Below, in pieces: positions 1 to 25,078 of a stretch of 64,000 nt of DNA; within the stretch, counting starts at the first letter, position 1, and the number at the start of each line of letters is the position of its first letter. The translations under genes were made by a program, and so were the position numbers. A model generated the notes under the pieces. That model searched no databases, was not told the origin of the DNA, and saw only the letters and a list, made by a program, of their open reading frames with translations. The DNA is taken from positions 27,917,468 through 27,981,467 of the forward strand of contig CM032129.1 of NCBI GenBank assembly GCA_018894105.1, in the 5' to 3' direction. This DNA is from Jacaranda mimosifolia (Eukaryota; Streptophyta; Magnoliopsida; Lamiales; Bignoniaceae).

Positions 1-129
1 TTTGTTTTATTTAATAAGTTGAAAGAAATAAAATTTACCAATCCGTATGGAATATGGCCCTACTCACCACTGATTACAAATCATACTTTTAGAGTAGAAA
101 TTTATCTTTGTTGGATTCAACACCCATCA
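1..129 (+). repeat. 3' end of a gypsy-type LTR
   Basis: The first 129 bases closely match, in inverse orientation, the sequence at 13417-13545, and the match stops at the same ...CCCATCA terminus in both. At this copy the terminus is followed by a primer binding site and gag leader, so it is the end of a 5' LTR whose start lies outside the window. The LTR at 62941-64000 shares downstream-adjacent family sequence with the longer copy at 13417-13650. Confidence 0.8.
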
Positions 130-134
130 AATTT

Positions 135-149
135 TGGCGCCCCGTGGAC
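135..149 (+). other. Degenerate primer binding site (tRNA-Asp type)
   Basis: TGGCGCC followed by a GTGGA-like remainder lies six bases after the LTR end. Plant Athila-type gypsy elements use a site complementary to the 3' end of tRNA-Asp that begins TGGCGCCGTTGCC. Here the middle of that site appears deleted or altered, so it is probably non-functional. The tRNA assignment rests on family knowledge. Confidence 0.6.
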
Positions 150-351
150 TGGTGTAAAATAATTTTGTTTCTTTTAATGCCCCAATCTTCTCGTACAGGT
201 GAACTTCAATATGATCCAGAGATTGAGAAAACTGCTCATAGATTGCGAAAGGAGACTAGATTGCAAAAGAAAGGCAAATCGTCACCTTCGGATCTCAACC
301 TAGATATATCCAATTTAGTCAGTTCTAGTAATTCAGAACAAGAGGAAAATA

Positions 352-1258
352 ATGGCCCGTGAAAGAACTTTAAGGGAGTTAGCTGAACCTAATTTGGCTC
401 AACAACCACTTTGTATTTATTGAATATCCGGAGTTGGAAACACCTTTTGAGCTAAAACCTGGGTTAATCCATCTACTACCTATTTTTCGTAGTTTAGAGA
501 ATGAAGATCCCCATAAGCATTTAAAGGCACTTCATGTTGTGTGCTCGACGATGAAACCCCAATGAGTATCTGAAGAGCAAGACAAGTTGTGAGCTTTTCC
601 ATTTTCTTTAGCAGATAAAGCTAAAGATTGGTTGTTGTATATACCCCCCGACTCTCTCACTACATGGACGGATATGGCAAAATTGTTTCTTGAGAAGTTT
701 TTCCCTGCTACACTTGCTACTAGCATTAGAAAAAAGATCAGTGGGATAAGACAGAGAGACGCGAAGAATCTTCACGAATATTGGAAAAAGTTTAAACAAC
801 TTTGTGCAAGCTACCCAGAACATGGTATTACTGAGCGACTTCTCATTCAGTACTTTTACGAAAGACTTTTACTGATGGAGAGGAGGATGATGGATGCAGC
901 AAGTCAAGGAGCCATAGTGAAAAAAAATCCAAGTGAAGCTAGAGAATTAATCTCTATAACGGCTGCCAACTCCCGCCATTTTTGGATACTCTTAGGACCC
1001 CCTAGAAGGGTCAATGAGGTAAGTAATCGTCTCTTGAGCATCAAATTTCCACTTTAACTTTTCTTGTTCAGCAATTGGTTGTAGGAAATATGCGACAAAT
1101 GAAGGCTTGTGGGATTTGCACTAATGTTGGTCCTCCTACGGATATGTGTCCTATGCTCCAAGAGAATTCCTACGAAAAAACCAATGCAGTAAGAAGATTC
1201 TCTGGACCCCCGCAAAGAAAGTACAATCCCTACTCAAACACATACAACCCAGGATAGA
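352..1258 (+). pseudogene. Degenerate Ty3/gypsy gag
   Basis: The reading starts at ATG 352 (MARERTLRELAEP), a start seen in plant gypsy polyproteins, and is broken by several stops and shifts. The best piece, 632-1057, carries a retrotransposon gag core: a FLEKFFPA motif, an IRQRDAKNLHEYWKKF segment and an LIQYFYERL segment. A cysteine-containing stretch (CGICTNVGPPTDMCP) and the GPPQRKYNPYSNTYNPG segment follow at 1100-1257. Gag would form the virus-like particle. The short ORF at 108-362 is leader sequence. The multiple stops make this a dead copy. Confidence 0.8.
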
Positions 1259-2469
1259 GGGATAATTTGAATTTCAGTTACGAAAGGAGATCGCAAAACT
1301 ACCAATACTTCCAACAAAAGCCACCCCCTCCACAGCAACCATCCTCTTCAAATACTGGTATATCTCTCGAAGAGATTGTTAAATCGCCTGCGACTAATAC
1401 TCAACAATTTCAATAGGAAACGAGAGCAAGTATTCCAAACTTGGAGATCCAAATAAGTCAACTAGTCACCTCAATAAGTAAGATAAAATCCCAAGGGAAG
1501 ATACCATCTCAGATAGTTGTCAATCCCAAGTAGAATGTTAGCGCGATTACTTTAAGGAATGGTAAGGAGTTGAAGGAACTCAGCAAGAAGACATGAGAAA
1601 ATACTAATGTGGAAAAGGAGGAAAGACAGATTGTCATGTCCCAAGATTTGGTTGAACATTCGCAATGAACCCAATGGTAAGGTGACAGGCCCATTGGCTG
1701 TACACCCTCCCTTTCCTGAAAGGTTCACTAAATCCAAAAGGCATGAAGAGGAAAATGAGATTTTTGAAACTTTTCACAAGGCCGAGGTAAATATCCCTTT
1801 ACTGGATGCAATCAAGCAAACGCCTCGTTATGCTAAACTCCTCAAGAAATTATGCACAAATAAAGAAAATTAAAAGGCAATGAAAGAATAAGTGTTGAGG
1901 AAAATGTCTCAGTAGTGATACAAAGGAAATTGCCCCCAAAATGCAAAGACCCAGGTATGTTTACTATCCCTTGCAAAATTGGCAGAGTTGGAATTGAAAA
2001 GGCTATGTGCGATCTTGGTGCTTTAATTAATATCATGCCTCTTTCCATCTACTCTTCATCGAATGTTGGTCCTTTGAAAGAAATAGGAGTAGTTCTTCAA
2101 CTTGTTGGTAGGTCTGTTGTATATCCTGAGGGAGTTCTAGAGGATGTGTTAGTACAAGATAACGAATTGATTTTTCCTGTTGATTTTTATGTACTTAACA
2201 TGCATGAAAATAACTCTCCTAATTCGTCTCAAATACTGTTGGGAAGACCTTCCCTTAGAACCTTTCGGATGAAAATTGATGTGCACGATGGTACACTTAC
2301 TATGGAGTTTGATGGTAATATGATTAAATTCAATATTTATGATGCGATGAAATATTCTAGTGATGAATTTTGTGTTTCTATTGTGGATAATATTGATACT
2401 TTGACTCATGAAACCTTGAATTTAAATTGTGATAATTTTGTGATGTCAGGAATAGCTATGTCTAGTTAA
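1259..2469 (+). pseudogene. Gypsy linker and aspartic protease remnant
   Basis: This continues the gag polyprotein. A proline/glutamine-rich linker with an ITLRNGKEL motif leads into an open stretch at 1915-2469 that begins IQRKLPPKCKDPGMF. The retropepsin-like core has CDLGALINIMP at the active-site position, where related elements usually read DLGASINLMP, and an ILLGRPSLRT segment marks the second half of the fold. No reverse transcriptase, RNase H or integrase sequence follows before the reading ends at 2469. The original element continues at 15643 on the other strand, because the segment between was inverted (see findings). Confidence 0.78.
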
Positions 2470-2584
2470 AGACGTCAAAGAGAGGCATTTTTTGGGAGGC
2501 AACCCGAATTTCCAATTTGTTGTTTATATTTTCAAAAAAAAAAATAATAATAATTAGCTTCTTTTTTTGTTTTTTTTGGATGCA

Positions 2585-2765
2585 GGAGACGTTTTAAATT
2601 GGCTTGTGGGCATAGTTAGTTTGACAGGAAAGCTCTCTAATCAACCCGTGCCCACGTCTTGTTGAAAGACCACTTCTGGCATGTTGGAATAATTTGACAA
2701 AGGAAGGCTCTCCAATCTATCCGTGTCCACGCCTTGTTCAAGGACTTGTTCTGGCTTGTTGGAAT
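2585..2765 (+). repeat. Tandem repeat of about 76 bp, left half
   Basis: Degenerate direct copies with a period of about 75-78 bp share a core reading TTGGAATAATTTGAC, then GGCTCTCCAATC, then a CCGTGTCCACG-like part and CTTGTTCAAGGAC. The array is cut at 2765 by the hAT insertion and resumes, inverted, at 15643 down to about 15495. Spacer arrays between the protease and the 3' ORF or LTR are known in several plant gypsy elements. Confidence 0.75.
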
Positions 2766-5700
2766 TAGGGGTGTTCACAGTTCGATAAACCGGCCGAATC
2801 GAACCGAAACCGAAAATTCGGTTTGTACCGAATATCGAACCAAAAATTTCGGTTCGGTATTCGGTTATTTTTTTAAAAAAAATTCGGTATTCGGTTCGAT
2901 TTCGGTTTTTTGTACCGGTTAACCGAACCGAACCGAATAATCGAAATTTTAATATATATATTATATATATGTGTGTGTGTGTGTAATGTGTTACTATATT
3001 TTATATATATATAATATATATATAATATAGAATTAGTAAACAGTCAACACTTTAGTCTGTTCCCCAAAACCACAGTGCTGGGATTTCAGATTTGTGGGTT
3101 TTCGAGAAATTTTTCTGCTGTGGCTTCAATGGCTTTCACACAGTTTTCATTGGTGCCTAGGTTCTCTTTCGTCATCTTTTAATCTTCGTCAAGATCTTTA
3201 TACCAGCACAGCAGATGAGCAGAAGCAGCGGGCAGCAGCAGTGAAAGTGTGAACCGTGAAACACAGCGGGCGGCAGCAGCAGCAGCAGCAGTAGCAGAGG
3301 CAGAGCACAGTTTTCCTCTTTTCCTCACAAAATTTCTAATTTCTTCAGATCCCTTAATTCCTACACCAAAAACTTTATTAAAATCCTTTCTTCACTTCAG
3401 CAGGTAAAAATCAGCAACACAACTCAGCAAGATAGCGAAGAAACAAACCCATTCCGACGGCCGACGGGCGACGGGCGACGGGTGAAGGGCCATTTTCCTC
3501 AAGCAGCAGTGCAGCACGGCAGGTCGGCAGCAACAGATACAGTCAGGTAAGTAAATTTTTTTAGTTTTCTTTATTTTTTTTTTCTGTTTCTTTATTTTTC
3601 TGTTTCTGTTCTGTTTTTGTAAATTTCGTAAGGTACTTTTAGTGTTAGTATTGTATGTAATCTGCATATATACAACAATGGGAATATCAATTGTTGATTT
3701 GGTGTTTGGATTTTAATTTGTTTGATTTGATTTGCCATTTAATTTGCATTTTGCTAATTTTAGATTAGACTTAATCTAGAGACTAGAGATGTTTTAGTTT
3801 CAAGTTTTAGTTCCTTATTAATATTTGTTAATTGTTAATGTGGGTTTTCCAACTATATGGAGATTTTATTGGGTATAATTTGGTAGAGTTATGTGTTTTG
3901 CATTGTTGACAACTTGACATAGTATTAAGTAGTTGGACTCAATGCTTTGATTGTTTATGTTGTATGCAAGAGGGGTAATGATATTCAATTGTTTTGCTTG
4001 TTGCTAGTGTGAAGGCTATTTAATTTTAACTAATTTGGTGTTCTTAGGCAACGAAGTTATATTATATTGCTTTTGTCCACATATAAGAATACTGTGATTC
4101 TTACCCTCTTATTATTTGAACTTTTAGTTAACTTTACTTTATATAGGTTATTATAAATTTATATTTATAAATGTAACTAATTAGATTTCTTTATTTTCAG
4201 GTATGGAAAGTGAAAGAAGTGCTTCAATGAGTTCAATGCCTATGGATTCACATCCAGTTCCAAATCCAACTCAAGATCATCAACAAATAGAAGATGTAGA
4301 AGAATTAGAGCATCTTTCAGACTCACACACACAAAATGAAACTCAAAGTCAAAGACCAAAGAGAAAAGAGATGTCCAGAAGATCTCGAGTTTGGGATCAC
4401 TTCAATCTTTACACCGAAAAGAATGGAAAGCAGAGGGCTAAATGTAATTATTGTGACAGAAATTATGCAGCTGATCCTTCAAAAAATGGGACTTCTGGTA
4501 TGAACAATCATATGAAGGTATGTAAGAATCATCCTGATAATGCTTATGTGGGAGATAATCACACAATTCAAAGTTTTTGTCAAAGTGTAACTGGAGAATT
4601 GAAAGAGATATCTTCTAGTTGGAAATTTGATCAAGAGGCTGTTAGAAAAGGCCTAGCACGTATGCTAATTGTTGATGAATTGCCTTTTAAATTTGTTGAG
4701 AATGAAGGATTTAGGCATCTTATGTCTATTGCATGTCCACAGTTTTTTGTGCCATCGAGAACCACCATAACAAGGGATTGCTATAGAATGTACTTTGATG
4801 AAAAAAATAAGTTGAAGAATTATTTTAAGAACTCGGGGCAAAGAATTTCATTAACCACTGATACATGGACTTCTAATCAGAGACTTACCTACTTATGTTT
4901 GACTGGACATTTTATTGATGAAGATTGGAAATTACATAAGGTGATTCTTAATTTCATTCCATGTCCCACTCATAAAGGTGACGAGGTTGGTCTCTTGATT
5001 GAAAAATGTTTGCTTGATTGGGGAATTGACAAGATTTTCACAATTACTGTTGATAATGCTTCATCTAATGATACTACTGTGGCTTATTTGAGAAAAAGAT
5101 GTTAATTGGGGGACTTCTATATTGGGTGGGAAGTTTTTGCATGTAAGATGCATGGCTCATATTGTGAATCTTGTTGTTAAAGATGGATTGAAAGAGGTGA
5201 ATGAGTCGGTTGAGCGGGTTCGTACAGTGGTAAGGTATGTGAAACAATCCCCTGCAAGATTGAAGAAGTTTAGTAATCATGTTGAAGAAGAAAAGGTTGA
5301 TAGTAAGAAATCATTGTCTTTAGATGTTCCAACTAGATGGAACTCTGTTTTCACTATGCTAGAGACAGCTTTGGTTTTTCAAGATGTGTTTGACAGATAT
5401 GAGATGCATGATTCGGATTTTCGTGCAGATTTTATGCTTAATGGACCTTATGGAAAGATAGGATTGCCTACGAAATATGATTGGGTTGTTGTTGAGCATT
5501 TGGTAAAAGTGTTGCAACATTTTTATGATCTTACTCTTCGAGTGTCTGGCTCTTTATTTGTGACATCTAATACATTTTTGGACGAAATTAGTGATGTAGA
5601 TGATTTATTGAAGGAGTGGCTTAAGAGTGATGACTTTTATTTGGTGGATATGGCGGAAAAAATGAAATTGAAATTTGACAAATATTGGGGTAATATAGAG

Positions 5701-7139
5701 AAGATGAACATAATGTTGTATGTTGCTGTCATGCTTGATCCTCGTCACAAGCTGAATTATGTGTTGTATGTGTTTAAGAATATGTATGGGAATGAACGTG
5801 GAGAGCAGATGGGAAACTTGGCAAAAGGTGCTCTTTATGATGTTTTTGAAGAATATAAGAATTTGTATTCTTCTAAAACATCATCACTATCATGCTCTTC
5901 AAATGCATCTAAGGAAAACACAATGCAAAATTCATCTGGGTCTGAGGCTGAGAATGAAAGAAAGGCTATGAGAGCTCATAGAAAGAAGTACTTACAAATG
6001 ATATCTGAGATTGAAGGAATGGATGAATCAGAGTTAGATATGTATTTACGTGAGCGCATTGAAAAAGACACTACAGAGTTTGATATCATTGATTGGTGGA
6101 AAGTGCATAGCCCTAGATTTCCCATTTTATCAAGATTGGCTCGTGATGTATTTGCCATGCCCATTTCTACTGTGGCTTCTGAATCTGCCTTTAGCACTGG
6201 AGGTCGCATCATTGATGACTTTAGAGCTTCATTGACTCCTAAAATGGCACAAGCTCTAATTTGTTGTCAAGATTGGCTCCGTCGTACCCCAAGTAAGCCT
6301 CTTGAAGAGGACTATGAATTCCTTCAAAAAATTGAAAAAGGTAAAATTTAATGTTTTATTAAAATAAGTTCAATTATTAATTCTATATTCATTAGTACGT
6401 TGCTTTTTTGTATTTCATTCTTATCATGATTTCTTGTAGATATGGCTTCAAGTGTTGGTACGGAGTCAACTATCATTGGTTTATGAGGTATATGATATGA
6501 AATTCAATATTTCAAGTTTTGACATATAGGTAAATTGTTATTACCATTCTCTTTCTTTAGCGTAAATGTTGTAAATTGTTGCTCTTCTTTTGTTATTTTT
6601 GTTGCTTTATTTGCTTTTTTTATTTTTTTATTTTTGGGTTTTGCAGTTTGCAGATGTGTTGGAACTTGGATAGTTGGACGAATGATGAATTGCTAATTTG
6701 CTAGTGTGGTGTGGAGATTGGAGACTAGAGTCTTAGATTTGACTTTTGAGCAATGGCTAAAAGTTGAAGACTTTGAGTGGATTGTTATCATGTTATTTAA
6801 TTTGTGTTCTCCCCCCCCCCTCTCGCCTTCCCCCTTCCTCTTGGCACTCGAAACAATTAAAGTTTAGCATGAATTTATTATTGTTGTAACAACTAATTAC
6901 TATTAGCAACTTATAAATTTGTGGTATTAAACTATTTCTTGATATAGCAGTTATTTTTTGTTAATTAAGCTAAAAAAAAAATAAAATCGGTATTTCGGTT
7001 GGCAACCGAATCGAACCGAATAAAATTTCGGTTTTAACCGAACCGAACTAAGTAGTTCGGTTCGGTATTCGGTTTGGAATTTTGGTGTACCGAAATTTCG
7101 GTTCGGTTCGGTTCGGTTTTTACCGAATGAACACCTCTA
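2766..7139 (+). mobile_element. hAT transposon, copy A
   Basis: The 4,374-bp element starts TAGGGGTGTTCAC and ends TGAACACCTCTA, giving short imperfect terminal inverted repeats. Its subterminal regions are packed with ACCGAA/TTCGGT hexamers (about 2790-2945 and 6990-7128), likely transposase binding clusters. It carries a transposase gene with a 5'-UTR intron (GT 3547 to AG 4200). The flanking 8-mers do not match each other: GTTGGAAT at 2758-2765 and AGCAAGCT at 7140-7147. They match the flanks of copy B crosswise. By eye the two copies are nearly identical over their whole length. Confidence 0.95.
4203..6486 (+). pseudogene. hAT transposase gene, copy A (one frameshift)
   Basis: The first reading frame (4203-5105) holds a BED-type zinc finger (about residues 61-110, CNYC then H103 and C107) and the first RNase-H-like parts, including TTDTW (Asp about 220) and TVDNASSN (Asp about 284). 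After an AAAAA run near 5094 the frame shifts by one base. The second frame runs to 6340 and contains a GGKFLHVRCMAHIVNL motif and a C-terminal hAT dimerisation domain with STVASESAFSTGGRII. A GT-AG intron (6341-6439) then joins a short last exon ending in TGA at 6486. Without the extra base the protein would be about 725 residues, in range for plant Ac-like hAT transposases. The enzyme would cut and paste DNA at 8-bp targets. Copy B carries the same frameshift. Confidence 0.9.
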
Positions 7140-7147
7140 AGCAAGCT

Positions 7148-7640
7148 GTTGTAAGAACGGCTACATAAAATTTAATGATGATTTGGTTTCGCATTCTACA
7201 ACGGTTGTAAGGGACCGTAAATTATTTTTCTCTTGATTACATTCTGGCGTTTTCTGATGGTTGTAAACTATCTTGAAAATTTATTTTTTTGGCCATTTAT
7301 TATTATGTTTTTTCAACTTAAGCAGCTCTTAGAGCAAATTGCAGCTACTACTTTTTTCATTTCGCGACGGTATGGAAAGTGTATGTTTTTTTATTTTAGC
7401 ATCAATTTCTTAACCGTCACGAATATTTTTAACTTTTTTTACTCTGTTTTGTTTAGATTTATACCAAAAAAAAATTGGTTTTGGTAAAATTTTTAATAAC
7501 AATCAACAATCAGGAACATCAAGCTTCATATTGAATCAACCATCATTGGATATCAAAATAAATATCTCCTTTTCATCCTAGAAAATAATATCAACAATAC
7601 ATATAAGTTGGAGTCATGCTAGATAATTTAACAAAATAAC
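7148..7640 (+). repeat. Old repeat, possibly CACTA-derived (copy 1)
   Basis: The part at about 7320-7640 matches about 12250-12600 in direct orientation: both share TTTAGATTTATACCAAAAA, an AATCAACAATCA-like stretch and a TTGGAGTCAT end. Short inverted motifs such as CGACGG and CCGTCAC recall CACTA subterminal repeats, but no CACTA terminus is visible, so the class is tentative. No coding sequence was found. Confidence 0.4.
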
Positions 7641-7920
7641 ATAAAAGAACTACGATTCATCGACTAAGCATGAGGAGATGATGGATCATGACTTTAATTT
7701 GTGGGGTTCATGGTTCTCTGAAAATGAGTATCTTACTTTTGCTGGTGATCAAATATATGCCTGAAATATATAAAACAAAAGCAGATTATAAAATTAAACA
7801 AATAATTACAGAATAGAAGGATCCATCATCTCCTGAAAGTAGGAACTTGAAAGTATAATCCTGAATAGTATCTTCAAAGTTCTTGTAAAATACTAAAAAT
7901 ACTCCATATGCATAGAGATG

Positions 7921-8170
7921 TAATATTAAAACTAGTTGAATTTTTGCAACTCCATTTAGGTTCCGCATCAGTAAAGCCACTGATGAAGGTTTGTTGTGCA
8001 TCAAAGAACCATGCAAACGATAAAATGGTAGATTGGAGAAATTATTTCCACCCCAAGTCCCTGATGTAGTGTTCGATTGTGTCGTCGAGGAAGCGGTGCC
8101 GGTGTTGCGCTGCCAGCGCCGCCGGCTATATTGTTGCGGACTTAGTCTGTGGGAGTAGTGGATTTGGATC
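7921..8170 (-). pseudogene. N-terminal fragment of an organic-cation-transporter-like gene
   Basis: Read on the minus strand from 8170, this aligns with the first roughly 80 codons of the transporter pseudogene at 39096 but has no MULE in it. Recognisable parts are DPNPLLPQT, the alanine-rich stretch, DDTIEHY, and LQSTILSFAWFFDAQQTFIS followed by FTDAEPKWSCKNSTS. Stops replace at least two glutamine-type codons. Similarity ends near 7921 and unrelated sequence follows, so only the 5' end was copied or survived. It provides the uninterrupted version of the MULE target. Confidence 0.85.
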
Positions 8171-8592
8171 TAAATACTAGGTAATATCCAGGTTAGGTCA
8201 GGCCACGCACACAAGGAAAAAAAAACAAAAAAACACTTGAAGTTAAAAGATTAAGAGGATATTGGAATTGTGAAGATGGAGTTGAAAAAAAAATGATGTT
8301 CAAGGTTTCACCTATTTAAGGACACACCTCATAGAATAAATACTTGTCCTTTGTCTCAAATAGCTTTCATTATTTTGTTGTATTTAATATAAGAATTAAT
8401 AGTCATGATATCAATGTCATTCTTGCTAAATTAAGACAATACTATATGTATTTATGTGGTTGAAAATACTTACAATTAGTCACATCAAGTTTTCTGGCGC
8501 AATTTCATTGTCATTTATATGAAATGGACGGTCCAAATACTTGGTAATATCCAAGTTAGGTCAGGCCACGCACACAAGGAAAAAAAAAAAAA
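8168..8592 (+). repeat. Two direct copies of a 60-bp sequence
   Basis: Positions 8168-8226 and 8530-8592 share GGTAATATCCA, then GTTAGGTCAGGCCACGCACA and an A-rich end. The first copy directly abuts the transporter fragment. The 300 bases between the copies are AT-rich and show nothing else. Confidence 0.7.
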
Positions 8593-9626
8593 CTAAAACT
8601 TTTGACAATCAATTTAAGTTGTTGAGTAATTTCTTTTTACTAATTTTCTGGAGGTAATGTTGAATGATGATGGGATTAATTTTTGGATATAATAAATATT
8701 AAGATTATTTTATTTAAATGTATTATATTTACTATATGGGATGAAATGAAGGATGGGAAGGATATTTTAAATACAAGTTCAAATATGTGGATGAAATTAG
8801 ATGGATAAAGTATAAATTGATCAAAATACTCTTGCACATGAAAACAAAATATTGAGCTCTTCTTTAGACATAATTCAAAGGTTGTGGGAAATGTAATATT
8901 CAAGGTGCTTGATATGATCAAATCATACATTGAAAAATATAGTGAGATTTACAAGCAAATATTTTGAGGCGGTGCCTAGGCATCAAAATTAGTAAATATT
9001 ACCCAAAACATCAGTACCTAGATACCAACAAAGGCGCCAATATTGCAAAGTATTAGCGCTAAGCATGGCTTTATGATGCCGTGGCATCAATTCGATGGGT
9101 ATGGAGTATATTTGCATATCAATAAATCAAATATCGAATAGAATTGTAGACCATATTCTTCCAGGGTTAGGTGTATGCAATGAAGTTACTTTCATTGCAC
9201 AAGGGGGCATTAATGTAACTGCATTAAAGTAAAGAGAGGTCAGTAGTAATTTTGATACTCGTTCTTGGCAGTTACATAAATGAATGATTCCTAATTCCAT
9301 TTTATATACTTATAGTGTCGTGTCAAGACTAATTTACATGCCTCTTAACTTAAATAGTAAACAAGAAATGTTATTGTATCTTGTGAAAATATCGAATCAG
9401 TATATATATATATATTAAATTTTTATCCTGCCGATCATTTGAAATAAGCTAGCTCTCTCATTGTAGCCATCAATCTATATCACCTTCGAGGGGAAAGTAA
9501 TCATTTGAAGAAAATGGAAGAAAAATACCGAAAGTAATCATTTGAAGAAAAATATGTCAATCACCGATTTGACTACTAAAAAACAATTGGACTCCATCAG
9601 TAATATTTCTTGTACCGATAAATTTC
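8593..9626. other. AT-rich intergenic sequence
   Basis: No gene, RNA or transposon end recognised. Short open frames here have no protein-like composition. There is a short TA repeat near 9402. Confidence 0.5.
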
Positions 9627-9629
9627 TTA

Positions 9630-9999
9630 GAGCCCATTTGAATGTGTGCTCAAATTAATCTTTTGTTTTTTGTGAAATTCAAAAAATGGAAAGTTAATTA
9701 GTTATGAATTTAGGTTTGAAAATGAGATGTCATTTGAATGTTTGTCTAAAATAAAATGATTGTATAGTGTTGAAAATGAGATGTATTTGGATGTTTTTGT
9801 ATTTTTATATTAAAAGTCGTGCAAATGAGAATAGAAAAAATAGGTGTAAAAATAGAGAGAGAGTGTAAAAGTGTATTTGAAAAAATATTTTGAAAATAAA
9901 AATATATGTGAAAATACAAGAGAAGCTAATAGCTTTCTATTTTTATTTTTTAAAAAAAATAAAAAAGAAAAAAATTGAAAATGAAACCAAACGGGGCAC
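9630..9999. mobile_element. Tourist-like MITE
   Basis: A 370-bp non-coding element flanked on both sides by TTA. Its ends are GAGCCCATTTG and CAAACGGGGCAC, imperfect inverted repeats of the same type as the MITE at 31161-31653. The TTA target and G/C-rich ends fit the PIF/Harbinger superfamily. Confidence 0.65.
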
Positions 10000-10129
10000 T
10001 TACACCGTAGAAGCAGGCTTTTTTTCATGTCACTGTCTCACATCGGGTTGGCTAGGGTCCGATAAGCATGAATTTAACTAACATCCTATACCCCTTAAAA
10101 ATTTGACATGTGTGCAAATGACTTTTTTT

Positions 10130-10184
10130 AAAACCATTGATGGTTAAATTAATTTTTAAAACCATTGATGGTTAAATTAATTTA
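10130..10184. repeat. 28-bp unit duplicated in tandem
   Basis: Two nearly perfect adjacent copies of a unit beginning AAAACCATTGATGGTTAAAT. Confidence 0.85.
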
Positions 10185-10539
10185 CTTAATTAGCCATATA
10201 TAACTAAATTAACTTTAAAATGATTTTAAATGTCAAATATATATTTTTTATTAAAATTAATATATAATTAAAAATTAAAACAAAAATTAAAATATCCACT
10301 ATAGTTAGAGATCCTTCTCGCTTTGTTATCCTCTAATGCTTGGTGGGCGCGAGAAGTGAGTATCTCTTTTTGTCTGTCGCACTTTCTTGGCACGATCCTT
10401 TCTGCCCAGCCATCCTGGCAGAATCACTCTCCTAGCAAAGTTACTTACTACAATGTGCTTCATAATGCACTCATCAAACTAGCCATAACCTGGTTCAATC
10501 ACATGCTTGCTGGATTTATCATTGGATTGGCGTAATTCC

Positions 10540-11345
10540 TAATAGTTCCTCCATAACTTTTCCATCAATTACAAGTACCCCAAGACGGCTACCTACCTAT
10601 TCACCATTAAGCAGAAAGATAGAGAAACATTGAGGAACTATATTAATCCATTTGTTCAAGCACTTCATGAGATTCCACATCTCAACTAGGAGCTTATGCC
10701 CAGCATTATCAACAGAATTTGAAATACTAAAAGTTTTAAGGAAGGAAAGGGTGAGCATAATGATGCGTTCGTGATCTCAACCTCCCTCGTTGACCACTGA
10801 GTAAAAAAGATCATAGTGGATAGTAGCAACTCATTGGACATAATCTTCCATGACATTTCCTTTTTGGTTGGGTTCACCGGCAAGACTGTAGATGCATTCA
10901 AAGAAATTTCCCTATTTCTTTACTCATCGCTAGAAAGTAATGAAGTCGTTGAAGTACCTAGTGGTCAAGGCCTCTTCTACTTATTACATTCTTGAGAGGC
11001 CCACCTTGAACATCTTCCAAGCAGTTTTGTTAACCTGAAGATGAATTTTCCCACTTTTGGATGGATAGGACTTAGGAGAAGCAATTAGCGACAAGCACAT
11101 TGCTTAAGAATATTACGCCAACATCTTAAGAAGGATGCAAACCAGGACAATCACGAAAGAAGTGGTGGAAGCATCAGGAGATAAGACAAAGACCTTGTTT
11201 TGGAAGCTAACACTAGGGTTCCTCCTTTGCAAGAAAAAACCTTTCAAAGGAAGAAAATTGAGGAACCTTTCCGAAAACCCCAAACTAGAAAGAAGCCACT
11301 CTCAACAATTCAACCAGCACTTTGAGGAAGAGGAATACCCTTAAC
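10540..11345 (+). pseudogene. Gypsy gag-protease remnant
   Basis: Broken frames on the plus strand read like a second type of plant gypsy gag-protease. A gag piece contains YPKTATYLFTIKQKDRETL, and an aspartic-protease piece has VDSSNSLDIIFHD, where relatives read VDxGSSADIL. A later segment, KMNFPTFGWIG, corresponds to the region after the flap in this family. Parts between gag and protease are deleted. 11135-11344 is the longest open piece. No polymerase follows. Confidence 0.6.
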
Positions 11346-11639
11346 GATAATAAATGCATCTTTTGAGGCGCAATAAATTCTCTTTTTGGAGGTAATTCGT
11401 TTATTTTAATTTAGTAGATTTAGTTTCCCTTTGTTTGATATTGATTTCTTGTAGCTTAGACCACCTTTTTATTTATAATAAATAAAGTTTGTCCAAAACC
11501 ATTGAAGACAACTTATGCTCTTTTGGGAGTTTAATAAAATATTTTAATTTCTTCCGCATAAATGTGCTATTCTAGTACAAGTTATTCATTCACATGAATC
11601 AATTATTTGCAGTAATACTTTCAGGGGCACACAAAGATA

Positions 11640-12165
11640 ACACCTCTGCAGGAGAACTCAAGAGGCTTTCTCCATGGAGCAACAACATCGCAGTAAAACC
11701 TTGAGTGCACTATGTGGAAAGATTTATAGGCACATGACACAACTTAGCAATAAGCCCAGACACGCTATGAGGTAAGATCTTAGCTACACGACATAAGGAT
11801 TTAGAGGTAAGACCCTAAGTGTGCTTTATGGTAAGATCCTATGTGCGACATAATGACTTAGTTGTAAGATCCTAGGTGGCATTGTGGTAAGATCTTAAGC
11901 GCACGGAATGATGGCTTAGCAATAAGATCCTAGATGGGTGGAACAACGACTTAGCCGTAAAACCCTAGGTGTGTATTGCAGTATGACCTTATGTGCATCG
12001 AACAACAAATAAAGACAACTATAAAAACCCCAAGGAGATGAGTGACAAATAAACAAAGACCATTATAAGACCCTCAAGGTGACATGTGCCAAATAAAGGA
12101 AGATCACTATAAAGCCTCCAAGGGGGAGCATGGCAGACAAATAAAGATTGCCATAAAACTCCCAA
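11640..12165 (+). repeat. Degenerate tandem repeats (two related families)
   Basis: The left part (11640-12000) repeats TAAGATCCTAGGTG-like segments alternating with GACTTAGCAATAAGA-like segments every 40-50 bases. The right part (12000-12165) repeats AAATAAAGAC followed by TATAAA and CCCCAAGG every 45 or so. Copies are heavily mutated. The array follows the gag-protease remnant and probably belongs to the same dead element. Confidence 0.7.
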
Positions 12166-12199
12166 GGATAAATCACCACAAATTTTTTTTTTTTCATGG

Positions 12200-12600
12200 T
12201 GATTGTGAGATAGTTGTGAATATTTATTATTTATTTATTATCTTTTTTAATTCTAACAGTGGTTAGAGCAAACCATCACTACTAATTTTTTGTTTTCAGT
12301 TCACGACAATTTGAAGAGTGTATTTTTTATTTTATTTTAGTGGTAGTATCTTAATTTTTGTGAATATTTTTTATTTTTATGCTCAATTTATTTTAGATTT
12401 ATACCAAAAACTTGGTTTTAGCAACAATGTTAATTTTCCTTTAAAAAAAAATAATGTTAATCAACAATCAAGGATGAGAAATATTGAACTTCAGATTACA
12501 TCAACAATCATTAAATATCAAAATAATAGTTCCCTTTTTTATTCTAGAAATTAACATCAACAATTTTAATTGGAGTCATATAATTCTAGCCGGATAACAT
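12200..12600 (+). repeat. Old repeat, possibly CACTA-derived (copy 2)
   Basis: A diverged direct copy of 7320-7640, with the same order of blocks. The gypsy remnant and tandem repeats lie between the two copies. Class uncertain. Confidence 0.4.
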
Positions 12601-13416
12601 TCCATAAGTTGGAAAATTATTTACTTTCCACAAGGATGTAGCTTTTTATTAAAATTTTATTTGGTAGAGACATCATAAATATGAATGTATGTTTCCCACA
12701 ATAACTTCGATTCTTCTATCAACGGCTGCAGGTACACATCTATCATACCCTTCAGTTTTTTCGGACTCGGAATGATACAGGAGAAAACATATTAGCTTGT
12801 CATATATACACATTTCTAAGGGCAAATTGTAGGTAAGAATGGAAGGCTAACGTGAATAAGGAGATGCTGATTGATTAAAAGGAATAAGACCATTTATACA
12901 CAATCTAACCTTCACATTTCTAGGGTCACTTGAAATTTTTTGGATATATATGATCAAAATATTTTCAAGCATTCCCAGCTAAAGGATGACACATGACACC
13001 GTCTGCTCTACAATTCTCATAATACCATATTATATGAGCTATTGAACTTATTAACACATAAAGCCTCTTTAACTTACGTATTAGAAGCTAATAATACATT
13101 CTTTTATCATGCACTTCTTGAAGTTTTTCTTTATCCCTCTTCTTAATATGAGTTTTATAACTCGTTGCACCACAAGACTTACATTATGTATCATTAAAAT
13201 TGGCCTTGTTTGGTTGCAAATTCCCAATACACTTTCCAATTCCCAAAATTTAAATAAACAATACGCATTCCCCAATTCTACTCCCAAAACACAAAATTCA
13301 TTCCCCAAAATACCCGTACTATTTACACCCAATACATCTCCAATGCTAAGCTACTTGTAATAAATTGTCTCATTCCTATTATAGATATATACACATACTA
13401 CAAATCATTCAATCAA
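12601..13416. other. Intergenic sequence without recognised features
   Basis: AT-rich. Overlapping open frames on both strands at about 13081-13360 look like chance. Bases 13412-13416 (ATCAA) are the outer neighbour of the LTR end and would be the target-site copy on that side. Confidence 0.5.
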
Positions 13417-13650
13417 TGATGGGTGTCGAATCCAACAAAAATAAATTCCTACTCTAGAAGTATGATTTATAATCAGTGGTGAGTAGGGTCATATTCCAGA
13501 AGGACTGGTAAATTTTATTTTTTTCAACTTATTAAATAAAATAGAAAAGAGGGGGGATTTTTATGAAACGAAGAAAACTAAAATCTTAAAAGTAAATAAA
13601 CCACAAATAAAAATAAGGAATCAATAAGAAGGAAATCTAGCTTAAGGTAA
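13417..13650 (-). repeat. 3' end of the gypsy-type LTR, inverted
   Basis: On the minus strand this ends in the same CCCATCA terminus as 1-129 and matches it throughout. Its upstream part, around 13600-13650, matches the last 60 bases of the window (63940-64000). Only about 235 bp of the LTR are present here. Directly upstream on the minus strand comes the end of the ORF at 13695, so the 5' part of this LTR is missing. Confidence 0.8.
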
Positions 13651-13694
13651 ATGTGGAAAAGGGACTCCCCTGAGGAGACGAGGTCTGCATAGCT

Positions 13695-15363
13695 TCAAGG
13701 ACCAGGTGGAACTGGGGGTAAGGAACCAATATGAGCAAAATATGCCATAAGGTTGGTTTCTATGCGTGAAAGCTGGTGGCGAATAGCATTAAGATCATCG
13801 TCACTAGTCCTTGCTTTAGCTGGAGCAGAGGTGGGTGAGGTTCCCTCATCATCATCGAAAACCCTCATACGCTTCCGTGACTACTGGGTCCTACAGAGCA
13901 AAATAAAACACACCATTCCGTTTGCCAAGTAGGCCCATTCCTTCTAAACAATTCAAATCCAAAGGTGTCATATCACAAGTAATATGTATTGTGTTATCAT
14001 AATGAGTGATCAAGTGCTTGTGTATGGCCAAATGTGTAATGAATGATCCCAAGATTAATGCCCGTTTGTTAGCCAAGATACTGGCAAATTAAGTAGCCAA
14101 CCAACACCCAAGGTTAACTTTCACATTATTGTGCATGCACTAAAGAAAATAAAACTCTACTTTTGAAAGCACGCCAGCAGAATCCTTTCTATCCGAAAAA
14201 GAAAATGCAAGAAAGCAATGAACGTATTTAAAGGCAGGATCAACAAGAAAAGTATCTTTGGATTTGCTAGGATCATAAGGGAAAATTGTGTTTTGAGTCA
14301 AAGATTTGTAAAGCGTTTAAAGCACAAACTCAACATTAAAATCACATATGTAGTTCAAATATTCATCAAAATGTGCATAATTAGGTGTGATAAAATCGAA
14401 TGCCAAGTTAAATTCAGTGATAGATAAGTTAAAACTTTAACCCATTAATCAAAATGCAACCACATTAGGAGTATTCAGAGAGAAATTAACTGGTTTGTTA
14501 AACTCAAAAGTAGTATAGAATTCACGCACAAGTTCAACATATACCGGATAACGAATTAAAAAATATGGGTGCCATTCAATACCATCAATTAATTGATCAA
14601 TATTAGCACGAATATTTAAAGTCTCAAGAGTGGGATAGTGAATATACTTACAAGGGAGGATTGGTTTAGAGCAAACCTCATTGTATCTATCCCGTTCATG
14701 AGATGTGGTGAACTGGAGAGATTCGTGCAAGTCAAATTATGTGGTTAGAAGGATAGTTTTTCCTTTTCCAAGTTGAGAACGACATCAAAATTCGGATGAA
14801 GTAGATGGCCAAACATTAACAGTGGAAGTGGTTGGCTGTTGAGACGATTCTGAAAGAGATTTAGTTGGGTGTGTGCGCATTACCCGAGTGCTCTTGGAGC
14901 TTTGAGAACGAGTTGTAGATTGGTTTTCTTTCATGTTTGGTTGAGTAGTTTATGGCGAAGGAAGGTGCTGGTGATGGCATGTTTGAAAGTGGCCGAAGGT
15001 GGTAACAGTGGGTGGTGATTGGAGATGGAGATGGTGATGATGGTTGGTGTTGATGATGATAACAGTGGTGGCGGGTTTGATGGTGATGAAGAGGGTGGCG
15101 AATGGTGGTGGTGGGTCTTGTTGATAGTAGTGGCAGATGGTGGTGGGTTTATGAATGTGGTGGCGGAGAATGATGTAGATGGTGTCCGATGGTGGATGAT
15201 GATGGTGGTGGCCGAGAATGGTGGTGATTTTGTGAAGAGTGTGGTGGGTTTGAAGAATGATGGTTGAAGATAGTGGTTTAGTAGTGATGGTGGCGGGTCT
15301 TGAGTTTCTTGGAGAATGAGATGAATAGTGGGTGTTTGGTTGAGTCAAAATTGGAGGCTCCAA
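13695..15363 (-). pseudogene. Plant-transposon-type ORF (Athila ORF1-like), broken
   Basis: The minus-strand reading begins near 15363 with a low-complexity His/Thr/Pro-rich part. A globular piece at 14449-14730 contains RYNEVCSKPILPCKY, LNIRANIDQLIDGIEWHPYF and LVREFYTTFEF. This pattern (RY...I.P..., then GW..F, then EF..SF) is that of the plant proteins labelled 'putative plant transposon protein' or Athila ORF1-like. Further fragments lead to a tail, LNAIRHQLSRIETNLMAYF then SLPPVPPGP, ending at a TGA at 13695-13697. Several frameshifts and stops interrupt it. The function of this protein class is unknown. It once lay downstream of the gag-protease at 352-2469. Confidence 0.7.
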
Positions 15364-15494
15364 TTTTGACCATCTTTTTCACACTTTTTTTTTAATAAAT
15401 ATATATGCATAAATGTAAAAATATTAATAGTAAAAATAATAATAAAATAAAATAAATAAAGATAAATAAATAAATAAAACGGTTTAAATGGTTT

Positions 15495-15643
15495 AGATGG
15501 TAGGGGAATTGATGAAAGAAGACGTGGGCATGAGTAGATTGAAAAGCTTTTATGTCAAATAATTCCAACATACCAAAAAAGGTCTTTGAACAAGACATGG
15601 GCATGGGTAGATTGAAGAGCTTTCCTTGTCAAATTATTCCAAC
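15495..15643 (-). repeat. Tandem repeat of about 76 bp, right half (inverted)
   Basis: Read on the minus strand from 15643, this continues the array of 2585-2765 in the right register: GTTGGAATAATTTGACAAGG, then the TCTTCAATCTACCC part, then a second unit. It proves that the two sites were once adjacent. Confidence 0.85.
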
Positions 15644-18600
15644 TAGGGGTGTTCATTCGGTAAAAACCGAACCGAAATTTCGGTACACCAAAATTCCAAA
15701 CCGAATACCGAACCGAACTACTTAGTTCGGTTCAGTTAAGACCGAAATTTTATTCGGTTCGATTCGGTTGCCAACCGAAATACCGATTTTATTTTTTTTT
15801 TAGCTTAATTAACAAAAAATAACTGCTATATCAAGAAATAGTTTAATACCACAAATTTATAAGTTGCTAATAGTAATTAGTTGTTACAACAATAATAAAT
15901 TCATGCTAAACTTTAATTGTTTCGAGTGCCAAGAGGAAGGGGGAAGGCTCGAGGGGGGGGGGAGAACACAAATTAAATAACATGATAACAATCCACTCAA
16001 AGTCTTCAACTTTTAGCCATTGCTCAAAAGTCAAATCTAAGACTCTAGTCTCCAATCTCCACACCACACTAGCAAATTAGCAATTCATCATTCGTCCAAC
16101 TATCCAAGTTACAACACATCTGCAAACTGCAAAACCCAAAAATAAAAAAATAAAAAAAGAAAATAAAGCAACAAAAATAACAAAAGAAGAGCAACAATTT
16201 ACAACATTTACGCTAAAGAAAGAGAATGGTAATAACAATTTACCTATATGTCAAAACTTGAAATATTGAATTTCATATCATATACCTCATAAACCAATGA
16301 TAGTTGACTCCGTACCAACACTTGAAGCCATATCTACAAGAAATCATGATAAGAATGAAATACAAAAAAGCAACGTACTAATGAATATAGAATTAATAAT
16401 TGAACTTATTTTAAGAAAACATTAAATTTTACCTTTTTCAATTTTTTGAAGGAATTCATAGTCCTCTTCAAGAGGCTTACTTGGGGTACGACGGAGCCAA
16501 TCTTGACAACAAATTAGAGCTTGTGCCATTTTAGGAGTCAATGAAGCTCTAAAGTCATCAATGATGCGACCTCCAGTGCTAAAGGCAGATTCAGAAGCCA
16601 CAGTAGAAATGGGCATGGCAAGTATATCACGAGCCAATCTTGATAAAATGGGAAATCTAGGGCTATGCACTTTCCACCAATCAATGATATCAAACTCTGT
16701 AGTGTCTTTTTCAATGCGCTCACGTAAATACATATCTAACTCTGATTCATCCATTCCTTCAATCTCAGATATCATTTGTAAGTACTTCTTTCTATGAGCT
16801 CTCATAGCCTTTCTTTCATTCTCAGCCTCAGATCCAGATGAATTTTTCATTGTGTTTTCCTTAGATGCATTTGAAGAGCATGATAGTGATGATGTTTTAG
16901 AAGAATACAAATTCTTATATTCTTCAAAAACATCATAAAGAGCACCTTTTGCCAAGTTTCCCATCTGCTCTCCACGTTCATTCCCATACATATTCTTAAA
17001 CACATACAACACATAATTCAGCTTGTGACGAGGATCAAGCATGACAGCAACATACAACATTATGTTCATCTTCTCTATATTACCCCAATATTTGTCAAAT
17101 TTCAATTTCATTTTTTCCGCCATATCCACCAAATAAAAGTCATCACTCTTAAGCCACTCCTTCAATAAATCATCTACATCACTAATTTCATCCAAAAATG
17201 TATTAGATGTCACAAATAAAGAGCCAGACACTCGAAGAGTAAGATCATAAAAATGTTGCAACACTTTTACCAAACGCTCAACAACAACCCAATCATATTT
17301 CGTAGGCAATCCTATCTTTCCATAAGGTCCATTAAGCATAAAATCTGCACGAAAATCCGAATCATGCATCTCATATCTGTCAAACACATCTTGAAAAACC
17401 AAAGCTGTCTCTAGCATAGTGAAAACAGAGTTCCATCTAGTTGGAACATCTAAAGACAATGATTTCTTACTATCAACCTTTTCTTCTTCAACATAATTAC
17501 TAAACTTCTTCAATCTTGCAGGGGATTGTTTCACATACCTTACCACTATACGAACCCGCTCAACCGACTCATTCACCTCTTTCAATCCATCTTTAACAAC
17601 AAGATTCACAATATGAGCCATGCATCTTACATGCAAAAACTTCCCACCCAATATAGAAGTCCCCCAATTAACATCTTTTTCTCAAATAAGCCACAGTAGT
17701 ATCATTAGATGAAGCATTATCAACAGTAATTGTGAAAATCTTGTCAATTCCCCAATCAAGCAAACATTTTTCAATCAAGAGACCAACCTCGTCACCTTTA
17801 TGAGTGGGACATGGAATGAAATTAAGAATCACCTTATGTAATTTCCAATCTTCATCAATAAAATGTCCAGTCAAACATAAGTAGGTAAGTCTCTGATTAG
17901 AAGTCCATGTATCAGTGGTTAATGAAATTCTTTGCCCCGAGTTCTTAAAATAATTCTTCAACTTATTTTTTTCATCAAAGTACATTCTATAGCAATCCCT
18001 TGTTATGGTGGTTCTCGATGGCACAAAAAACTGTGGACATGCAATAGACATAAGATGCCTAAATCCTTCATTCTCAACAAATTTAAAAGGCAATTCATCA
18101 ACAATTAGCATACGTGCTAGGCCTTTTCTAACAGCCTCTTGATCAAATTTCCAACTAGAAGATATCTCTTTCAATTCTCCAGTTACACTTTGACAAAAAC
18201 TTTGAATTGTGTGATTATCTCCCACATAAGCATTATCAGGATGATTCTTACATACCTTCATATGATTGTTCATACCAGAAGTCCCATTTTTTGAAGGATC
18301 AGCTGCATAATTTCTGTCACAATAATTACATTTAGCCCTCTGCTTTCCATTCTTTTCGGTGTAAAGATTGAAGTGATCCCAAACTCGAGATCTTCTGGAC
18401 ATCTCTTTTCTCTTTGGTCTTTGACTTTGAGTTTCATTTTGTGTGTGTGAGTCTGAAAGATGCTCTAATTCTTCTACATCTTCTATTTGTTGATGATCTT
18501 GAGTTGGATTTGGAACTGGATGTGAATCCATAGGCATTGAACTCATTGAAGCACTTCTTTCACTTTCCATACCTGAAAATAAAGAAATCTAATTAGTTAC

Positions 18601-19984
18601 ATTTATAAATATAAATTTATAATAACCTATATAAAGTAAAGTTAACTAAAAGTTCAAATAATAAGAGGGTAAGAATCACAGTATTCTTATATGTGGACAA
18701 AAGCAATATAATATAACTTCGTTGCCTAAGAACACCAAATTAGTTAAAATTAAATAGCCTTCACACTAGCAACAAGCAAAACAATTGAATATCATTACCC
18801 CTCTTGCATACAACATAAACAATCAAAGCATTGAGTCCAACTACTTAATACTATGTCAAGTTGTCAACAATGCAAAACACATAACTCTACCAAATTATAC
18901 TCAATAAAATCTCCATATAGTTGGAAAACCCACATTAACAATTAACAAATATTAATAAGGAACTAAAACTTGAAACTAAAACATCTCTAGTCTCTAGATT
19001 AAGTCTAATCTAAAATTAGCAAAATGCAAATTAAATGGCAAATCAAATCAAACAAATTAAAATCCAAACACCAAATCAACAATTGATATTCCCATTGTTG
19101 TATATATGCAGATTGCATACAATACTAACACTAAAAGTACCTTACGGAATTTACAAAAATAGAACAGAAACAGAAATATAAAGAAACAGAAAAAAAAAAT
19201 AAAGAAAACTAAAAAAATTTACTTACCTGACTGTATCTGTTGCTGCCGACCTGCCGTGCTGCACTGCTGCTTGAGGAAAATGGCCCGTCGCCCGTCGGCC
19301 GTCGGAATGGGTTTGTTTCTTCGCTATCTTGCTGAGTTGTGTTGCTGATTTTTACCTGCTGAAGTGAAGAAAGGATTTTAATAAAGTTTTTGGTGTAGGA
19401 ATTAAGGGATCTGCAGAAATCAGAAATTTGTGAGGAAAAGAGGAAAACTGTGCTCTGCCTCTGCTACTGCTGCTGCTGCCGCCCGCTGTGTTTCACGGTT
19501 CACACTTTCACTGCTGCTGCCCGCTGCTTCTGCTCATCTGCTGTGCTGGTATAAAGATCTTGATGAAGATTAAAAGATGACGAAAGAGAACCTAGGCACC
19601 AATGAAAACTGTGTGAAAGCCATTGAAGCCACAACAGAAAAATTTCTCAAAAACCCACAAATCTGAAATCCCAGCACTGTGGTTTTGGGGAATAGACTAA
19701 AGTGTTGACTGTTTACTAATTCTATATTATATATATTATATATATATAAAATATAGTAACACATTACACACACACACATATATATATAATATATATATTA
19801 AAATTTTAGTTATTCGGTTCAGTTCGGTTAACCGGTACAAAAAACCGAAACCGAACCGAATACCGAAATTTTTTTAAAAAAATAACCGAATACCGAAACG
19901 AAATTTTCGGTTCGATATTCGGTACAAACCGAATTTTCGGTTTCGGTTCGATTCGGCCGGTTTATCGAACTGTGAACACCCCTA
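15644..19984 (-). mobile_element. hAT transposon, copy B
   Basis: This 4,341-bp copy has the same ends (TAGGGGTGTTCA and GTGAACACCCCTA) and lies in inverted orientation to copy A. The plus-strand flanks are ATTCCAAC (15636-15643) and AGCTTGCT (19985-19992), which do not match each other. They are the reverse complements of copy A's left and right flanks respectively. The subterminal ACCGAA/TTCGGT arrays, the 5'-UTR intron (about 18573-19226) and the transposase gene are conserved. A G-run near 15952 corresponds to the C-run near 6811 of copy A. Confidence 0.95.
16287..18570 (-). pseudogene. hAT transposase gene, copy B (same frameshift)
   Basis: Start ATG at 18570. The first 300 codons are identical in protein sequence to copy A and end at the same premature stop after LRKRC. 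The second frame (17669 down to 16433) differs from copy A by only a few residues: I for T in the RVRxVVRY segment, Y for H in FSNxVEE, R for H in VVVExLVK, K for Q in NTMxNSSG, and IL for VF in ARDxxAMP. The intron (16334-16432) and last exon (16287-16333) are conserved. The extra A in the five-A run is present here too, so it predates the separation of the copies or was homogenised between them. Confidence 0.9.
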
Positions 19985-19992
19985 AGCTTGCT

Positions 19993-20039: not shown

Positions 20040-20044
20040 GCCAA

Positions 20045-20298
20045 TGTAAGTTTGCAGGGCAGAAACTCATTCGAGAGAAAAGAGAAGAACAATGAAGAAG
20101 AATTTTCTATCTCAGTGTTTCTGCAACGAGTCTACCGAGGTGTTTATACACACATGGTTCAGCTTGCTAACCTGACTAACAGAATGGCTAACTGTGTAAC
20201 TAACTATCTAACTAGAGAATAATTAGCTAACTAATATGTTACAATATTTATATGCATGTTGAATATAAATGCAGAAATGTAAAGGATGAAAGTGAACA
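20045..20298 (-). repeat. Copia 3' LTR
   Basis: Starts TGTAAGTTTGCAGG and ends GTGAACA on the plus strand; the TG...CA ends are intact. A purine-rich GAGAGAGG stretch next to it on the minus strand may be the polypurine tract. Confidence 0.92.
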
Positions 20299-20306
20299 TA
20301 CCTCTC

Positions 20307-20870
20307 TCAAGTTAGAGCTTGGTGAGTGTCACACAAGCCCAACTTGGACGTAATGAACTGGAATGAGGGAACTGGGAGGGCCTTGGTAAAAATGTCAGCT
20401 AGTTGGAGCTTGGTGGAGACATGTTGAGGTGTAATAAATCCTTGCTTATATTGGTCCCGAACGAAGTGGCAATCGATGTCGAGATGTTTTGTACGTTCAT
20501 GGAATACGAGATTCTTCGTTATGTGTATGGCAGACTGGTTGTTGCAGAGTAAAGGAATAGGAAGGTGGATGGGAAGCTGGAGTTCTTTGAGAAGGTATGA
20601 AATCCATTGGAGCTCGCATACAGTAGATGCCATGCTTCTATACTCGGCTTCTGCAGATGATCGAGATACTGTGGATTGTTTTTTTGTCTTCCATGAGATC
20701 AAGGAATCTCCTAAGAAGATGCAATAGCCAGTGAGCGACCTCCTGGTGGTGGGACAGGAGGCCCAATCAGCATCACAAAAGACCTTGAGATGCAAGGAGC
20801 TTTGGGCAGCAAAGAAGAGCCCTTGTGAGGGGCAGCCTTTCAAGTATCGAAGGACATGAATCGCAACATT
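20307..20870 (-). pseudogene. Copia RNase H domain
   Basis: The minus-strand reading contains [10 protein letters not shown] (first catalytic Asp), [13 protein letters not shown] (second acidic cluster) and DIFTKALP near the C-terminus, the usual order in copia RNase H. A stop near 20870 separates it from the reverse transcriptase. It would degrade the RNA strand during cDNA synthesis. Confidence 0.9.
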
Positions 20871-22052
20871 CTAGTGGTCAACTGTTGGATCATTCACATA
20901 TTGACTTAACTGTTGAACAGTGTACGTGATATCTGGTCTTGTAAGATTCAGGTAGAGCAACCTTCCAACCAATCGTCTATATTGAGCTACATCAGTAGTG
21001 AGCTTAGTGTTCTTCGGCAGCGGCATAGATGTTGGCTTGGATCCTATCAAACCCATGTCTTGGAGGATGTCAAGTATGTATTTTCGTTGATTGAGGCATA
21101 TCCCTGTAGTAGATCGAGTTATTTCAACTCCAAGGTCTTTAATAGTGAATCTAGAATCCAGAAAATGTTTAACATCTTTTATTTCCTCCACATTATTTCC
21201 TGCTAGCAAAACATCATCCACATACACTAGTAGCACCGTTAATGAAGTAGAGGATTGTTTAATGAACATACAGTGATCATAGGGTGATTGACTGAATCCA
21301 AAAGTTCCCAACTGAGTAGTGAATTCCCTGTTCCATTGTCTCGAAGCTTGCTTTAACCCGTAGAGAGACTTTAATAACTAGCAAACCTGACCTGGCTTGG
21401 TTTTGTTATATCCAGCAGGGGGCTCCATGCAGACCTCCTTATGAATGAAGCCATGTAAAAAGGCATTGTTTATATCCAATTGGTGCACAGGCCATCCCTT
21501 CGCAACAACCAAGGCAAAGAGCATTCTGACAGTTACTGGTTTAGCTACCGGAGAGAAGCTCTCAAGATAATCCACTCCAGCCACTTGATTATAACCTTTG
21601 GCCACCACTCTGGCCTTATACCTGTCTACAGTCCCATCAGGTTTAAGTTTCAATTTGTAAACCCATTTTGAACCGATGGCCCTCTTTCCCATATGTAGGG
21701 TAGTGATTTCCCAAGTTCCGTTGGACTCAAGGGCCTCAATTTCCTTCTCCATGGCAGCCACCCACTGTCCTTGAGCACTGGCCTATTCAAAAGAAGTAGG
21801 TTCCTTGACAGTAGATATGTTAGCTAAGAATGCCATATATGTAGAAGAGAGGTTATTTTTTGCAGTGAAGAGAAAGGTTTTAGGTGTGTATGGGGTTTTT
21901 CTGGCTTCTGAATTAGTAGATGCGCCTGGGAAAGTCATTTGTAGCCCTTTATGAGTGTCATCATCAAAGACGTTTGAGATAAAGTCATTAAGCCAGGTTG
22001 GCTTCTTTCTGATTCTGGAGCCATGCCTTAGAGTCACTTGCATTTCAGGCAT
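20871..22052 (-). pseudogene. Copia reverse transcriptase
   Basis: In order on the minus strand: a linker from 22052 (RHGSRIRKKPTWLNDF); the fingers/palm part with GSKWVYKLKLKPDG, KARVVAKGYNQ and VHQLDINNAFLHG (21378-21761); SLYGLKQASRQWN near 21340; and the catalytic VYVDDVLLAG at about 21230. The YVDD box is intact. Stops near 21770 and 21378 and a frame change near 21312 interrupt the reading. Confidence 0.92.
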
Positions 22053-23351: not shown

Positions 23352-23409
23352 GTTGAACTTGAAATCTGAAACATGTAAGGTGGAATATAGTTTCAGTTTA
23401 TTAGTCAGT

Positions 23410-24714: not shown

Positions 24715-24805
24715 ACTCGCAACCTTGCTTTGGTGTCAAGCAATTCATCCTGGTAGCTCACAAGAACTGTAAAGGACTTTCGAAATTGTCAGAGCCACAG
24801 AGTCG

Positions 24806-24819
24806 TGGCTCCGATACCA
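24806..24819 (-). other. Copia primer binding site
   Basis: On the minus strand TGGTATCGGAGCC directly follows the 5' LTR. It differs at one base from the common plant copia site complementary to initiator-Met tRNA. Confidence 0.9.
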
Positions 24820-25073: not shown

Positions 25074-25078
25074 GCCAA

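Follow-up and report, generated by a model that had tools for sequence, protein, structure and literature searches.

An 8.5-kb inversion bounded by two opposed hAT transposons with exchanged target-site duplications in a plant genome: a likely case of ectopic recombination

The closest known kind of event to the one described here is represented by the Galileo inversions 2j, 2q7 and 2z3 of Drosophila buzzatii. Galileo is a P-superfamily element with 7-bp target duplications, the uninverted chromosomes were sequenced, the copies at 2z3 are chimeric, and recombination is told apart from hybrid-element insertion by chimeric versus identical copies (Delprat et al. 2009, PMC2775673). Unlike Galileo, the elements at the present locus, copies A and B, are plant hATs; the inverted segment measures 8.5 kb, the ancestral order is read from paralogues and no chimeric switch is visible. 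The reversed-ends inversions of maize Ac/fAc likewise have hATs at plant inversion breakpoints; however, they are driven by the transposase, create a new 8-bp duplication and lose the DNA between the elements, whereas here the old duplications are swapped and the joints are lossless (Genetics 2021, PMC8225341). Transposon-mediated inversion is thus a known kind of rearrangement, and the present case is a plant hAT example, unusually well documented for one assembly, with a likely mechanism. Hybrid element insertion of Drosophila P elements, the subject of work by Gray and colleagues in 1996, would leave the same flanks and start from one element. Copies made in that way are identical at birth, whereas A and B are 1.27% apart outside one tract of identity.

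The window, that is the whole 64,000-bp stretch of DNA analysed, corresponds to bases 27917468-27981467 of contig C13 in a 707-Mb plant genome of 65 contigs, and its N count is 0. Coordinates refer to the window; those that are negative or greater than 64000 lie beyond it on C13. Aligning the region of A with the reverse complement of the region of B, as an earlier note on this DNA had suggested, gave near-identical inverted copies (98.7% identity over the best 4,344 columns, 98.4% over 4,375). In the Pfam search, PF02892, PF14372 and PF05699 exceeded the cut-offs in the two ORFs of A. The best transposase homologues include entries named AC transposase and RICESLEEPER, and the organisms named are sesame and Paulownia. 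A control set of 16 hAT loci was drawn from the same genome, the family search having 70 matches in its listing, with scores for 40 of 753 candidates. Both ends were found at 13 of the 16 loci, the other three being L011, L014 and L016. Eleven copies were aligned in all: nine close ones (A, B, L002, L004-L008 and L010) and the more distant L012 and L013. The copies end in TAGGGGTGTTCA and TGAACACCCCTA with small variation. From the domains of A, and from the short terminal inverted repeats and 8-bp target duplications of the family, A and B belong to the hAT superfamily and are plant Ac-like. Their transposase frames, read from the assembly as it stands, appear broken at one and the same place. 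Intact frames of 716-718 aa are carried by L004, L007, L008 and L010, and L002, L005 and L006 are broken at other places. The four unbroken frames, together with perfect 8-bp duplications at these loci, suggest possible activity of the family in the fairly recent past.

Features of the inversion locus (window coordinates)
Feature	Position	Strand	Remarks
hAT copy A	2766..7139	+	4,374 bp; termini TAGGGGTGTTCA...TGAACACCTCTA; zf-BED, hAT-like RNase-H and hAT dimerisation domains (Pfam) in two ORFs
hAT copy B	15644..19984	-	4,341 bp; opposite orientation to A; full-length
Transposase frame of A	4203..6351	+	ORFs of 300 and 409 aa; broken by 2-bp deletion (about 5099)
Transposase frame of B	16422..18570	-	broken at the same place (about 17674)
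Site-1 duplication GTTGGAAT, outer copy	2758..2765	+	left of A
Site-1 duplication GTTGGAAT, inner copy	15636..15643	-	now adjoins B
Site-2 duplication AGCAAGCT, inner copy	7140..7147	+	now adjoins A, right side
Site-2 duplication AGCAAGCT, outer copy	19985..19992	-	adjoins B
Probable inverted segment	7140..15643	-	8,504 bp; strand from tally against neighbouring units
Tract of A identical to B	3873..5224	+	1,352 bp; element positions 1108-2459
Same tract in B	17549..18900	-	1,352 bp
Decayed LTR retrotransposon, left part	1..2765	+	5' LTR end at 129; gag-like remnants by reading; tandem array 2626-2765
Same LTR element, right part	13417..15643	-	array to 3' LTR end at 13417
Copia-type LTR element (type by reading of ORFs)	20045..25073	-	5-bp duplication GCCAA at 20040-20044 and 25074-25078

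Read in its own orientation, A is preceded by GTTGGAAT and followed by AGCAAGCT, and B is preceded by AGCAAGCT and followed by GTTGGAAT. Among the 13 loci with both ends, the own flanks match at 8 of 8 bases in all 11 controls, a result biased toward a match since the best-matching end pair was chosen for each locus; the own flanks of A and B match at 1 of 8 bases, and each matches those of the other at 8 of 8, both ways. The earlier note had claimed that normal hAT flanks are identical and that those of A and B are swapped, and this is borne out exactly to the base. The chance of both 8-mers agreeing crosswise is about 2e-10 at the base composition of the window, a value for a single pair and uncorrected for the number of pairs; a fortuitous crosswise match was rejected on this ground. 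Opposed homologous copies at the breakpoints and exchanged duplications, which are expected of an inversion by ectopic recombination, are both observed.

The locus lies within a tandem segmental duplication, and self-comparison of 127 kb of C13 (468 bases missing) revealed related units upstream and downstream, at a shift of about 58-64 kb. This duplication spans about -49000 to 77500 on C13 (L027-L031, L009, L018 and the window), and its matches are mostly 84-95% identical. Where the neighbouring units correspond to sites 1 and 2, they contain neither hAT. Site 1, rejoined by flipping the segment back, was matched in the downstream unit at 66106-67462, just past the window end, by one continuous alignment that takes in the whole 1,400-base query (1,417 columns, 84.8%). 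There the left-flank and inner matches overlap by exactly 8 bp (66796-66803), which constitute one empty site-1 target with 7 of 8 bases the same. For rejoined site 2, positions 196-758 of the query, which span the joint, aligned at 91.0% to the upstream unit (-34121 to -33570), where the empty site has one target copy, 6 of 8 bases being the same. In the whole-genome search with site 2, the upstream-unit match alone crosses the joint at length among the 8 matches listed; a further joint-crossing match, of 60 bases, is a self-match of the locus to the duplication next to B. When the joints of the present order were taken without the hATs, every match in the local 127 kb ended at the joint and none ran across it. 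A counterpart of site 1 was seen in the downstream unit only and one of site 2 in the upstream unit only, with none seen in the other unit. Relative to these paralogues, nothing has been lost at either joint.

The orientation of the intervening DNA was compared with that of the flanks by a strand tally (matches with E of 1e-15 or better, repeats included). Without its duplications, the inner segment aligned to the downstream unit over 6,256 columns in minus and 167 in plus orientation. Against the upstream unit the figures were 1,862 minus and 0 plus, just 7148-7886 being collinear and the remainder scattered repeats. The left flank aligned over 5,655 plus and 0 minus columns to the downstream unit, and over 105 plus and 200 minus, with no long match, to the upstream unit. 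The right flank aligned to the upstream unit over 9,233 columns in plus and 495 in minus orientation, and to the downstream unit over 993 columns, all of them plus. As the strand of the inner segment is the reverse of that of the left flank when both are compared with the downstream unit, and of that of the right flank when the upstream unit is the reference, it is in this unit that the segment is turned round. Since the flipped-back joints align to empty paralogous sites and the present-order joints align nowhere across, an inversion of the whole segment in the present assembly is strongly supported. The flip had been proposed in the earlier note and gains from these data one empty, uninverted paralogous site per breakpoint. 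The simplest course of events places the arrival of the hATs later than the duplication of the units. The uninverted order with single target copies is preserved in paralogous units, as distinct from orthologues; such units tell the ancestral order and not the frequency in a population, and an assembly misjoin is compatible with them.

A decayed LTR retrotransposon lies in two pieces on opposite strands. Its 5' LTR starts about 1.18 kb upstream of the window, and the 5' LTR end matches the 3' LTR end on the other strand at 90.6% over 235 columns. In the downstream unit the element is bounded by two LTRs, each about 1.28 kb long (62898-64178 and 69849-71126); compared with that copy, the present one lacks about 2.1 kb spanning the point where the 3' LTR begins, including roughly the first 1 kb of this LTR. 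The target duplication of this old element has decayed, with 3 of 5 bases retained here and 4 of 5 in the downstream unit by eye. Flipping the segment back does rebuild a single LTR element from the two pieces, as had been proposed. It was also said to restore a 76-bp repeat register; the tandem repeat is real, but the rejoined period is 74-75 bp. Array and split element make one signal, the former being contained in the latter, and the three independent signals of the original claim are reduced to two.

The run of 1,352 identical bases shared by A and B is the longest among the 36 pairs of the nine close copies, the next being 947. None of the 38 A-B substitutions falls within it, and each of the other 35 pairs has 3 to 10 there. 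The probability of zero substitutions in the tract is 2e-4 or 6e-4, depending on which of two pooled rates is used, and that of so long a run anywhere is 1.3e-3. Within the tract, A and B share three substitutions and the frame-splitting 2-bp deletion, all four of which are absent from the other nine aligned copies. Outside the tract they differ at 38 of 2,989 aligned positions (1.27%), are recovered as sisters (ultrafast bootstrap 82) and share exclusive substitutions at element positions 70 (gapped in two copies), 4043 and 4217. In trees of the separate parts, support for the A+B pair was 46 on the left, 97 in the tract and 86 on the right. From this sister relationship and the exclusive changes, A and B appear to derive from a recent common source, which fits a local hop or a hybrid-element duplication. 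A shared tract of this type is the expected trace of gene conversion at or near a crossover, and the 1,352 bp are likely to be a conversion tract and a candidate crossover site. Mapping the differences between copies in search of the crossover, another suggestion of the earlier note, thus yielded the identity tract; no switch of relatives along A and B is visible in the left, tract and right trees. The family is nearly star-shaped, so that no chimeric switch can be demonstrated.

We favour homologous (ectopic) recombination between two earlier, inverted hAT insertions as the origin of the inversion, with a probability of roughly 0.6. Two hATs of one family would have inserted about 8.5 kb apart in opposite orientation within one unit of the tandem segmental duplication, that of site 1 inside the LTR retrotransposon and that of site 2 in other sequence. 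Probably one hAT was the source of the other, or a common source supplied both, via a local hop. A later intrachromosomal ectopic crossover would have flipped the segment, each element being left with one flank per site; this crossover, or a conversion linked to it, would most likely have occurred within the identical tract. Three parts of this account are inferred: the presence of both insertions before the flip, the tract as the mark of the crossover, and the correctness of the assembly here. The swapped duplications had originally been taken to prove homologous recombination. Recombination is indeed likely and is favoured by the identity tract, but 'proved' is too strong, as swapped flanks also fit hybrid-element insertion from one hAT, or a misjoin.

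Hybrid-element insertion, an improbable reading and yet the strongest competitor, requires only one prior insertion. The 5' end of the hAT on one chromatid and the 3' end of its site-1 twin, on the sister or the homologue, would have inserted together at site 2, a single step that would both invert the segment and place a copy at either end of it; the identity tract would then reflect a later conversion. The same crosswise duplications result, both from the geometry and according to Delprat et al. (2009, PMC2775673), so that the duplications alone cannot choose between this process and ectopic recombination. Sister-chromatid transposition is described for maize Ac/Ds, also a hAT (PMC8225341). 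This reading predicts that A and B are sisters across the element, as is found, and two of nine close copies would lie within about 13 kb of each other at random with a probability of about 1e-3. However, copies identical at birth would have had to accumulate all 38 substitutions found outside the tract, which calls for a fairly old inversion and a separate, recent conversion. Moreover, other copies carry both alleles of some repeat-length indels and of four substitutions that separate A and B in the left 178 bp, a pattern that argues mildly against identity at birth. Recurrence is likely, however, because a CG-rich repeat contains three of these four substitutions, all transitions, and the indels fall in short tandem repeats. 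It is doubtful, a little more so than the reading itself, that a single hAT inverted the 8.5 kb and duplicated itself in this way, with copies that have since been converted and may flip the segment between individuals.

An assembly misjoin is distinctly unlikely. Two true hATs with normal flanks would have been crossed over by the assembler in the identical tract, and the segment would have been turned. The apparent product is the same, the paralogues speak to ancestral order only, and the 1,352-bp tract is a possible place for such an error. However, 38 substitutions and further indels distinguish the two 4.3-kb elements, and the window is free of N. Ordinary long reads generally span an element of this length. 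A misjoin by itself also leaves the exclusive shared changes in the tract unexplained.

Reversed-ends transposition, in which the facing termini of two separately inserted hATs would act together, has been demonstrated to produce inversions with maize Ac/fAc but is very improbable here. It creates a fresh duplication where the transposed ends land and deletes the DNA separating the elements (PMC8225341), and by reasoning it leaves the other two flanks unrelated, whereas both duplications are common to A and B crosswise and no loss is seen at the joints relative to the paralogues. Two further candidates were rejected. Inverted duplication of one hAT with its flanks conflicts with the differing flanks and with the divergence of A and B outside the tract. 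Macrotransposition with A and B as outer ends would, by reasoning, give matching outer flanks, and the + strand has GTTGGAAT and AGCTTGCT.

In the papers compared, transposon-made inversions with readable duplications come from Drosophila or from induced maize alleles (PMC2775673, PMC8225341). At the present locus, one assembly is enough to reveal the swapped duplications, the empty ancestral sites and a likely exchange tract, because the tandem duplication provides uninverted controls. A genome-wide test combining swapped duplications with paralogous empty sites could count such inversions and separate recombination from aberrant transposition.

Other insertions and repeats were observed in and around the window. 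The Copia-type element beyond B lies wholly in the right flank and has no part in the inversion. Between A and B, 7295-7617 and 12229-12579 are direct repeats, 68% identical and LTR-like by eye, which perhaps bound a non-autonomous LTR element, now decayed, of about 5 kb. In the upstream unit, some 600 bp beside the site-2 paralogue (about -33570 to -32943) are absent here; their ends are rich in GGGTA/TACCC by eye and they look like another small insertion. An ORF of 362 aa at 42592-43680 (+) has Sugar_tr/MFS domains; its block is repeated upstream, possibly as a tandem cluster of transporter genes. Finally, 52848-61900 contains a tandemly repeated stretch of about 4.5 kb, the two copies being 89% identical, and related sequence recurs about 60 kb upstream.
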